From positions 63,491-96,262 of the forward strand of contig PLSP01000077.1 of assembly GCA_003165195.1 (NCBI GenBank): a stretch of DNA of 32,772 bases, written 5' to 3'. The position numbers were made by a program, and so were the translations under genes. Each line of letters starts with the position of its first letter. The first letter of the stretch is position 1. The notes below the pieces were generated by a model, which saw only the letters and a list, made by a program, of their open reading frames with translations, searched no databases and had not been told where the DNA came from. This DNA is from Candidatus Bathyarchaeota archaeon (GTDB lineage Archaea; Thermoproteota; Bathyarchaeia; Bathyarchaeales; Bathycorpusculaceae). Below are positions 18,811-27,157 of the stretch, in pieces.

Positions 18811-19230
18811 TCAATCCTTTATTACTGTGATTTTGTAGGTTATTTTTACTCCCGCCTTCTCAAAAAGTATTCCAACGGGGCAGGTCTCTAACGTCAGTTT
18901 GTGCAACCTATCTATCCTGTCTTGGGGTGCATCGATTTTGTATTCGATGTCAAAGGTTTCCTCGCCGATAGTTCCAGTCTCATTCGACTTTACGGCTTCA
19001 ACTTTGACCTTCAACCCTTTAAGGGTCAAGCGCATTTTTTTAGCTGCTAAACAAGCGATTGTTACATAGCAACCTGCATGACTCATGACGCAGAGCTCAA
19101 GAGCTGACGGTCCAAAGCCTGTTCCAAGATCTGGGGCAAGGTCCACAATGGTGCTGTGTGATTCGCCATCGTCTAAGATGATTTGGAAGCCCTCAATTAA
19201 CTTGGCGTTTGCATACATCTTTGTGGTCAA
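18811..19230 (-). CDS. OsmC/Ohr family protein
   Basis: A 139-residue OsmC-fold protein. The two reactive cysteines appear in ALELCVMSHAGC and LETCPVG, separated as in the family; the second context (CPVGILFEKAG) is typical of archaeal OsmC. Such proteins reduce organic hydroperoxides with thiol or lipoyl donors. TTG 19230 is used, with GGAGTG 9 nt upstream; ATG 19218 is an alternative. The gene leads the operon with the flavodiiron gene. CATATAAGCGCTTAAA on the minus strand near 19280-19295 is a promoter candidate. Confidence 0.88.
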   Translation of the reverse strand: MTTKMYANAKLIEGFQIILDDGESHSTIVDLAPDLGTGFGPSALELCVMSHAGCYVTIACLAAKKMRLTLKGLKVKVEAVKSNETGTIGEETFDIEYKIDAPQDRIDRLHKLTLETCPVGILFEKAGVKITYKITVIKD

Positions 19231-19410
19231 AGCTCAGTACACTCCGAATGAGAACTCAAAAATCAAACTTTCAGATGGCTTTAAGCGCTTATATGCATTT
19301 TGTTTGAAACTCAAGCCCTCAAATCAATGGACTCATCGATTGCCAAGCCAAAGTTTCGTTTCAAAAGCCAACCTGAAATCAACTCAAACCAAACTCGATC
19401 TTGAACCTGA

Positions 19411-19937
19411 CAGAGGGGAGGTCTACTATTTGCATCAAGCTTCAATAGGTAAGAAGGAGCGTGTTAACCATACATAATGATGCCCTCTTATCTAGCGAAC
19501 TCGGCAAGAGGGTTAAAGCGCTCAAATGTGGCGGATAGGGATCTTGTTTACACAGGTTTCTATAGAAAACTGATGTAAATTGTAGACCCCTTCTCTTCTA
19601 TTAGGCAGAGCGTTGGTTAATTCAGTTCGCCTATTTGTATATAGAAAACGGTTACAAATAGTAGACCCCTATCCCTCCTATCTTTTTCTCGGAGAACAGC
19701 AGGACTGAACCATTTTTACCTAAAGAAACCTGGGGTAAAATTTAGGCCCCTTTCCTCCTTTAGGCGATTTGAGCGAGTTGCCGATGAAGTCTCTGAGAAA
19801 CAGAACACACCAAAAGAACGACACCTAAACCGCCTATTTACCTATAGGTGAGAGTGGGAGGATTCACTATCCATCCTGGCTGCCTCCGAGTTGGATAGGG
19901 GTTACTTTTTGTAACCAAAAACATATGTAAAAAAAAG
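19411..19937. repeat. cluster 1 of about 50-nt intergenic hairpin repeats (six units)
   Basis: This gap between the OsmC and PDO genes has no ORF but holds six related units: 19411-19454 (minus), 19546-19597 (plus), 19631-19678 (plus), 19711-19758 (plus), 19834-19876 (plus, shortened), 19890-19937 (minus). Each has a 5' arm like CTATTTACC, a loop with TATnGAAA, a 3' arm like TGTAAATAG and a pyrimidine tail like GTAGACCCCTATCC. Arms pair in most units: TTTACA/TGTAAA (19547-19552 with 19574-19579), CTATTTGTA/TACAAATAG (19631-19639 with 19653-19661), TTTTACC/GGTAAAA (19714-19720 with 19734-19740). The second unit also has an inverted tail on its left (GGATAGGGATC, 19533-19543). The minus unit at 19411 is nearly identical to the one at 26940. 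Confidence 0.8.
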
Positions 19938-19971
19938 TTTGTACACTCTGGGGGTAAAGAAATAAAAAATC

Positions 19972-20009
19972 GTTATATGCTTCTGTTCGCTTACTTTCCT
20001 TGCGGAAAG
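19972..20009 (+). promoter_or_regulatory. promoter and leader hairpin of the PDO gene
   Basis: GTTATATGC (about 19972-19980) is the TATA candidate. It is followed by a perfect hairpin CTTTCC-TTGC-GGAAAG (19994-20009) that falls near the transcription start or early leader, 25 nt before the ATG at 20035. Confidence 0.45.
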
Positions 20010-20034
20010 GAAACGCTTTGTGGAGTTTGTGTTT

Positions 20035-20685
20035 ATGAGTTTAATTCCTGATGACAAGAAAGAACTTCTTAAAAACGACTTTAAGATTCAGCTGATTGAC
20101 CCAGTAAAAATTGTCATGTTTACTCAAGAAGTTGAGTGCCGATTCTGCTCTGACACCCGTAAGTTGGTCCAGGATTTAGCCCCTCTTAGCGAGAAGATAT
20201 CAGTGGAAGTCTATGACTTTGTAGCTGACGCTGCCAAAGCCAAGGAGATGGGCATCGACAAGATTCCCGCCTTGGCAATTATTGGCAAAAAAGACTACGG
20301 AGTCCGCATTTACGGGATACCCTATGGCTATGAATTACAAACCCTCATCGAAGCCATCATCAACGTATCCAAAGGACCAGGACACACTGACCTCTCAGAC
20401 AAGACAAAAGCGGTTCTAAATGATGTTAAAACACCAGTCAACATCAAGGTCTTTGTCACCTTAACATGCCCTCATTGCCCAGCGGCAGCGGCCGTCGCAC
20501 ACAAACTAGCCATAGAATGTGACCTCATAAAAGCAGACGTTATAGAAAGCAGCGAATTCCCCGACCTTGCCCTGAAATACAACATAATCGGAGTACCAAA
20601 AATAATCATCAACGAAAAAATAGAGTTCGTCGGAGCATTCAGTGAAGACTTGTTTGCCGAACACGTGCTGCTAGGCGCTTTCTAG
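20035..20685 (+). CDS. protein disulfide oxidoreductase (PDO), double thioredoxin fold
   Basis: A 216-residue glutaredoxin-like PDO with two thioredoxin folds in tandem. The N-terminal site is ECRFCSD (C35-x2-C38) and the C-terminal site is LTCPHCP (C145-x2-C148); IPALAII and GVPKIII supply the cis-prolines. Archaeal PDO catalyses disulfide formation, reduction and isomerisation in the cytoplasm and is common in thermophiles. ATG 20035 is chosen because GTGGAG (20019-20024) fits as its ribosome site; the in-frame GTG 20020 would overlap that site. Confidence 0.95.
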   Translation: MSLIPDDKKELLKNDFKIQLIDPVKIVMFTQEVECRFCSDTRKLVQDLAPLSEKISVEVYDFVADAAKAKEMGIDKIPALAIIGKKDYGVRIYGIPYGYELQTLIEAIINVSKGPGHTDLSDKTKAVLNDVKTPVNIKVFVTLTCPHCPAAAAVAHKLAIECDLIKADVIESSEFPDLALKYNIIGVPKIIINEKIEFVGAFSEDLFAEHVLLGAF

Positions 20686-26608: not shown

Positions 26609-26788
26609 TGAAATCACCAAGTCAAGAGTTTCCCTAATGTTGTGTGCCGCTATTTATTTACTTTACAGTAAACCATAATCCATTTAAAGGCTAAAGCGGG
26701 GGAAGCAAAAGAACGGCGTTTACCTTTGAGATTTAGTTTTTTTTATAAATCTTCCTGGGTCTAAAAAACTGAGGCATGTAAGGTTAAA

Positions 26789-26987
26789 CCATTTTACATG
26801 TGTTTTTGGTTGTAAAAAGTGGATCCCTATCCTACTCTGTCTGCTGAGGTTGGCTTGCAGATACCCATTTTTACCTATTGCGGTTTGTTGTAAATACTAG
26901 AACCCTATCCCCTTGCGAGGTTGGCTAGTTTGGATTTGCCTATTTACCTATTGAAACTTGATGCAAATAGTAGACCTCTCCTCCTAC
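26789..26987 (+). repeat. cluster 2 of intergenic hairpin repeats (three units)
   Basis: Three plus-oriented units of the same family as cluster 1 start at 26789, 26865 and 26940, a spacing of 75-76 bp. Arms: TTTTACA/TGTAAAA in the first (26792-26798 with 26810-26816), TTTAC/GTAAA in the second, CTATTT/AAATAG in the third. Each ends with a pyrimidine tail of the CCCTATCC or CCTCTCC kind. Part of the spacer also recurs: GAGGTTGGCT appears after the first two units. The gap from 26609 to 27157 holds these units and a promoter (AGTAAATAAATAG near 26650-26664) for the gene to its left, and no ORF. Confidence 0.8.
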
Positions 26988-27157
26988 TCTCTTCTATGGC
27001 TTACTTGATTGGTTTGCTATTTTGTTAGCGATTTTTTAAAAATGAGAGTACTCTATACGTCAGGGTCTGCGTCAGCGGCTGTTTTGAGTTGCTTTTCTGT
27101 TTTAGGCACAAGTTTATTGCAGATTGACGTAAAATAGTCATATTACTAAAAGTTAAG

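Follow-up and report, generated by a model that had tools for sequence, protein, structure and literature searches.

The window, a stretch of 32,772 nucleotides from a Candidatus Bathyarchaeota archaeon, carries hairpin repeats at 19411-19937, in the gap between a minus-strand OsmC-like gene (18811..19230; Pfam PF02566, E = 9.3e-14) and a plus-strand protein disulfide oxidoreductase (PDO) gene (20020..20685; NCBIfam TIGR02187, E = 2e-73). Bacteria have mosaic palindromic repeats, many of them linked to RAYT transposases, and the locus raises the question of whether repeats of this kind live as parasites, arise as by-products of recombination, or organize the chromosome as sites that change together with a protein binding them. 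The family is a good test case, being a head-to-tail archaeal version for which a RAYT-type enzyme was not found and which is spelled differently in a sister genome. In the explanation that fits best, it probably consists of non-coding palindromic DNA repeats that form mosaic arrays and represent an archaeal counterpart of the REP/BIME elements of bacteria.

The preliminary description had placed six units in the OsmC-PDO gap, four inner ones on the plus strand and two outer ones on the minus strand. The orientations stood, and two of the inner units were complete, at 19627..19688 (arms CTATTTG..CAAATAG, foot GTAG; covariance model R1, 70.2 bits, E = 3.9e-17) and at 19708..19769 (arms ATTTTTACC..GTAAAATTT; R1, 52.8 bits, E = 3.3e-12), while the other two were only halves: a right half with loop end, 3' arm, and tail at 19561..19600 (R1, 25.9 bits over 19549-19609; rank 2 among right halves of the window), and an orphan left half at 19830..19847 that terminates in CCTATAG (position weight matrix [PWM], 22.8 bits, rank 1 in the window). 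Both minus-strand units were recovered, the left one at 19399..19460 (R1, 44.0 bits, E = 1e-9) and the right one, at 19884..19939, as a weaker "start"-type unit with the loop ACATATGTTTTTGGTT (nhmmer, 11.9 bits, E = 0.045), the loop class of which, or a similar one, also opens several other arrays. The second array of the window lies on the plus strand and consists of a "start"-type unit at 26785..26837 (nhmmer, 14.3 bits) and units at 26863..26924 and 26936..26997 (R1, 56.6 and 58.6 bits). The units at 19411 and 26940 had been called almost identical, which was too strong, with 6 of 43 positions differing. ARAGORN found no tRNA gene in the window, and the KEOPS genes of the window are of the archaeal type.

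The units exceeded chance expectation by far. The tail pattern GTAGACCCCTATCC, with up to three mismatches, had nine matches in the window, six of them inside the two arrays; in 100 shuffles of the window the mean was 1.15 and the maximum 5, so that equally good units in shuffled sequence, named beforehand as an outcome that would speak against the family, did not appear. The pattern AATNGTAGACCCCT, with up to two mismatches, matched 84 + 86 times (170) in the whole genome (G000; 3.16 Mb, assembly 95% complete), compared to 31 + 35 (66) for the reversed control. Model R1, built on an alignment of 64 of the 68 units above 25 bits, assigned E ≤ 1 to all 150 candidates scored in G000, which makes 150 a minimum, and gave 157 matches at E ≤ 0.01 in 37 stretches comprising 366,897 bases; the best 150 of these 157 were fitted to the model as a second alignment. 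The covariance search of this and related genomes, as had been proposed, found many units outside the window and confirmed the family, and the prediction of a new intergenic hairpin repeat was borne out with at least 150 units at 50 or more sites.

For the array listing, the 162 nhmmer hits (of 171) that scored 11.5 bits or more were used; they fell into 53 strand-wise groups at 50 sites after merging groups that share a gap. The number of sites is a lower bound, since three weaker R1 matches (C27, C75:59999, and C168:11791) lie outside the examined stretches. Fifteen groups held a single unit, and 9, 11, 5, 6, 3, and 4 groups held two, three, four, five, six, and seven units, respectively; units thus followed each other head to tail in one direction in 38 of the 53. 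Groups were formed strand by strand, and one-directionality therefore rests on the positions, by which only the window site, 1 of the 50, contains both directions. Neighboring genes were tandem for 27 groups, divergent for 13 (the window gap being counted three times among them), convergent for 11, and undetermined for 2, compared to 212 tandem, 72 divergent, and 68 convergent background gaps, with genes called by a simple longest-ORF rule; this gave no clear bias for arrays. Mechanical ORFs of at least 70 codons spanned more than 40% of the group in 13 of the 53 and were taken as chance. Some short contigs were crowded with arrays, namely, C113 (L091, 13 kb) with four groups, and C128 (L095, 9 kb) and C86 (L087, 13.5 kb) with three each, possibly an effect of assembly breaks at repeats.

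A unit forms a palindrome interrupted by a loop; the A+T stem has 8 bp, the loop measures about 15 nt and in most cases contains GAAA, the foot lies 3' of the hairpin, and the tail is C-rich, as in ACCCCTATCC. The foot is NTAG or TGAG, and among 150 units GTAG occurred in 88 (59%), CTAG in 24, and TGAG in 17. The stem arms vary among different complementary sequences, with CTATTTAC, CTTTTTG, CAATTTTAC, and GTATTTAC as examples of the 5' arm, each facing a complementary 3' arm. Pairing was kept in 88.3% of 512 stem cells in the sequence-based alignment of 64 units and in 88.0% of 1,194 cells in the model-fitted alignment of 150 units; double-sided changes occupied 74 cells in the former, where shuffling gave a mean of 28.5, and 168 cells in the latter (shuffled mean, 67.7; about 2.5-fold), and sliding the partner abolished the signal in both. 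Related units inflate such counts, which are therefore read as kept pairing and not as many independent events; the covariation may derive from a few ancestral stem types.

Kept pairing could reflect DNA or RNA. The arrays could be structured non-coding RNAs built of tandem hairpin domains, as suggested by the compensated stem changes, by some spacer segments that appear complementary, and by single arrays with folding z scores down to -3.5 on one strand. G-U pairs were nevertheless rare in G000 stems (13 of 1,194 cells), though somewhat less so in the sister family of genome G004 (7 of 198), and across 16 arrays the z score averaged -1.19 on the sense and -1.16 on the antisense strand (range, -3.53 to 1.92). 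Rfam gave no match at the gathering score in the window and none at E ≤ 5 in 19300-20050, and the arrays had no clear relation to gene orientation. Rare G-U pairs and weak, strand-symmetric folding point to DNA rather than RNA, and the structured RNA put forward in the preliminary description is disfavored as improbable. The rejection of an RNA gene also draws on nine module groups, whose consensus folds had weak sense-strand energies (-4.8 to -14.0) and, in eight cases, a lower energy on the antisense strand. In the preferred reading as DNA repeats, the pairing would be maintained at the DNA level, as a hairpin or cruciform.

Hairpins and spacers recurred as modules in varying order and number. 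Measured from the tail start, the 109 spacers were 20 to 131 nt long, and 74 of them fell into 11 single-linkage similarity clusters, with 35 singles; since spacers recur between arrays, the arrays are mosaics. The module AATTTTACC..GTAAAATTGAG, for instance, comes after units with CTTTTTG arms or with CTTTTTAC arms. Arrays shared one segment of 334 nt at 89% identity, others being longer and less alike (438 nt, 72%), and the best array-to-array segments of at least 80 nt reached no more than about 92%, one same-locus overlap being left out, so the amplification as a whole is not very recent. The view of a young, spreading family held only for isolated units, of which two pairs were identical over 50 nt.

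Array ends had modules of their own. A 40-nt "start" module, AAAATCTGGTTTTTCATAGC..GCTTGCTTTATGAGATTTACC, was common to arrays in L071, L087, L091, L097, and L098; it precedes the first unit in arrays 3, 23, 29, and 41 and the second unit in array 43. The loop class ATGTGTTTTTGGTT marks the opening unit of some other arrays, and array ends repeatedly carried GCTTGCTTGTTTGG, with its near reverse complement CAAGCAGCCAAGC farther away, and GATTAAGTCTTGATAAACGCGTCAG. Flipping of the loop between the stem arms was considered and rejected: 11 of 118 array-near hairpins scored better flipped, most of them poorly both ways, and these were assigned to a loop class of their own and not taken to prove flipping. 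In G004, the loop of one hairpin (L128, 4028-4072) runs opposite to the linkers, as if flipped between the arms.

Head-to-tail repeats with spacers are also the layout of CRISPR and integron arrays. In contrast to these, the units of G000 vary, many of the spacers recur, and the spacers are short; a CRISPR array, with near-identical repeats and unique spacers, was rejected on the first two grounds. The BOX elements of pneumococcus, which are bacterial modular repeats of several subunits, resemble the arrays in their modular build and differ in being bacterial.

The exceptional orientation of the window site is associated with a 287-nt segment (19561..19847) that, compared with the outer units, is inverted or inserted and that has its two ends in loops at CTATAG. 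Its junctions, TTTCTATAGAAA and ACCTATAGGT, were absent from all other arrays and found once each outside arrays. The half units at 19561 and 19830-19847 were the top-scoring orphan right and left halves of the 37 stretches, both terminate at the palindrome CTATAG, and together they would make one unit with seven of eight stem pairs. Orphan halves ending at CTATAG within loops indicate that the segment was inverted, or inserted in reverse. The minus-strand halves outside the segment that match its ends are weak; a possible degraded right half of a minus-strand unit, near the left breakpoint at 19531..19567, scored -3.9 bits by PWM and ranked 11th on both window strands. At L103, a single unit starts abruptly at loop CTATTG. 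Overall, 17 left and 9 right orphan halves were counted in the 37 stretches against 89 full pairs, several of the orphans being chance matches or products of N gaps.

The loop breakpoints in the window and at L103 fit recombination between units, as in the preferred reading, and bear on two further readings. The units could be folded recombination sites of integron-like hairpin cassettes, with the spacers as gene-less cassettes; the shuffled head-to-tail modules and the loop breakpoints at CTATAG or CTATTG at two loci are consistent with this, but spacers of 20 to 131 nt are too short for the usual genes, and the breakpoints are few and located in the loop, which makes cassettes of this kind very unlikely. 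A dedicated archaeal hairpin-recombination system is something of a long shot, too. In it, a putative recombinase acting at or near the loop palindrome would build directional arrays by shuffling cassettes that hold no gene, and the enzyme would change along with its site, giving species-specific spelling at partly shared positions.

The distribution among relatives shows how narrowly the family is confined. G000 was the sole genome, of 256 in the class, to contain it in numbers, in a search whose strict filters lose weak matches, that scored few candidates per genome, and that yields 22 matches even in G000, so that it is a rough guide to abundance. Exact-pattern scans of a genome-contig and a viral-contig collection gave 0 matches each, with patterns that miss many true units and records of the own genome possibly excluded. 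In 40 relatives, R1 gave weak matches only, in G004, G020, G034, and G039, the best in G004 having a weak score with an E value of 9.0e-5.

G004 contains a family of its own, with TTTTTAGCTAGTGAAACTAGGTCTAAAAA and related hairpins and G-rich linkers such as GGTAGGGTAGGC. Its pattern matched 10 times in G004 and nowhere in 31 further genus genomes, including G000. A second model, R2, built from 29 G004 units, found 43 matches in G004 (26 at places that supplied the model and 17 new) and none in G000; elsewhere in the genus, G045 and G019 had a single weak match apiece. The two families have similar stems and feet (CAATTTT..AAAATTGAG, CATTTT..AAAATG, and CTTTTT..AAAAAGTAG); we think that they are homologous and that their linkers were replaced, the direct scores being weak. 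The family is all but confined to the G000 species and probably has a diverged counterpart in one sister, G004. In G039, from another family of the order, two similar copies of hairpins AATTTAC..TAAATTGGAGGCCCCC with C-rich tails (L106, 3247-3307, and L107, 1373-1433) may be a further relative.

The array stretches of G000 were checked against all 25 G004 sites (R2, 24; R1, one), five of which adjoin a G000-array gene. Both neighbors match for L121 with the window and for L140 with L099, one flank aligns for L179 with L072 and for L183 with L101, and L104 and L074 lie between the same two genes with extra ORFs in the G004 gap. The gap is demonstrably the same, with no extra genes, for two of the five. 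Assuming 2,800 gaps, the chance of sharing is P ~ 0.002 for five of 25, 0.013 for four, and 0.07, which is not significant, for the two same-gap sites; with these values, the sharing of positions is likely, not firmly shown. Both inheritance in place with respelling and repeated use of the same gaps fit the shared positions, and conserved positions could equally reflect a host function. At the second window array, the G004 gap is shorter and lacks an R2 match.

A host function is central to the reading of the arrays as binding sites for a chromosomal protein, such as a nucleoid, domain-boundary, or replication factor, with the palindrome as a dimer site and with site and protein changing together between species. 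The five shared sites, two in demonstrably the same gap, the presence of more than one unit in 38 of the 53 groups, and the rare G-U pairs, which fit a DNA site, all agree with it. A single recognized half-site, however, would not easily allow stem arms of different complementary sequence, and 255 of the 256 class genomes lack the family in numbers under the strict filters, which argues against a general need. We consider such binding sites unlikely as the main explanation, with a real if minor chance; under the preferred reading as REP/BIME-like repeats, a host use such as chromosomal-protein binding is possible and not needed.

The comparison with bacterial repeats supports a likeness in make-up, not an assignment to a known class. 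According to the available parts of the source, members of the GTAG-REP superfamily are mostly intergenic and frequently clustered, with stems of 5 to 13 bp, loops of 2 to 20 nt, GTAG at one foot, frequently observed GT pairs, alternative complementary stems by subfamily, some structured spacers, and an uneven distribution between species (PMC3733652). The unit palindrome fits in size (8-bp stem, loop of about 15 nt), and the G000 repeats are likewise intergenic and clustered, with complementary stem variants and GTAG at one foot. The difference lies in the share of GTAG, 59% of units compared to more than 90% of members in most REP families, in its side, 3' of the hairpin compared to 5' in the REP table of the accessible text (PMC2817692), in the rarity of G-U pairs, and in the archaeal host. 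The same text describes REPs as usually exceeding 100 copies and BIMEs as composite (PMC2817692). The mosaic of palindromes and recurring linkers, with 74 of 109 spacers clustered, is BIME-like, whereas the alternating orientation of BIMEs is absent, both directions being found at 1 of 50 sites. The family is thus an archaeal mosaic palindromic repeat of BIME-like make-up that stands outside the GTAG-REPs by foot share and side and outside the alternating BIMEs by orientation. RepRanger predicted intergenic palindromic elements in archaeal genomes, as general hairpin counts and motifs; the available passages share the archaeal host and intergenic location and lack mosaic arrays, and the main text as available contained no word beginning with "bathyarch" (PMC12306157). 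The titles and abstract openings of the literature gave no description of these arrays.

An enzyme that could move the units was sought by PF01797 only. No RAYT was found by this search in the 95% complete G000 assembly; one Y1_Tnp gene, also detected by Pfam, was present. The units could accordingly be REP/RAYT-like or IS200/IS605-derived miniature elements that a Y1 (HUH) transposase mobilizes in trans; the single Y1_Tnp gene and GTAG, the foot of 88 of the 150 units, speak for this. The hairpin behind the gene, however, is G+C-rich and unlike the units, and the distribution of Y1_Tnp, present in 15 of 32 genus genomes and in 13 besides G000 and G004, does not follow the repeats, since R2 found no numbers in those 13 genomes and neither did R1 where searched. 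We give mobilization by Y1 enzymes only a slight chance. Of the TnpA subclasses, according to passages of PMC6006769, 1.1 (IS200 type) alone has been seen in Archaea. An identity of the units as RAYT or IS200 ends was rejected as unsupported.

A non-autonomous element, one of the candidates proposed initially, or a selfish repeat remains the best fit, the link to an enzyme being the part that was not found. As REP/BIME-like DNA repeats, the arrays would grow and change by copying and by recombination between units, perhaps assisted by hairpin formation in single-stranded DNA, and each species would homogenize its own spelling, some positions perhaps being inherited. The initial copying into a new gap would need an additional factor or illegitimate recombination. 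An enzyme, target duplications, and a clean empty site were all looked for and not found; the corresponding gaps in G004, G017, G043, and G013 were too diverged to place the array ends.

A second dispersed intergenic repeat was observed, with the core TGTTTTGGGTTGCTTTTTTGATTTAG (up to three mismatches), often followed by degenerate repeats, e.g., GAAAAGTAT. It is located at 27080-27105 of the window and in L099, L202, L203, and L210, with 23 copies in G000, 28 in G017, one to three in four other genomes of the genus, and none in 26. This repeat comes after some of the hairpin arrays and is also found within the OsmC-PDO gap of G017.
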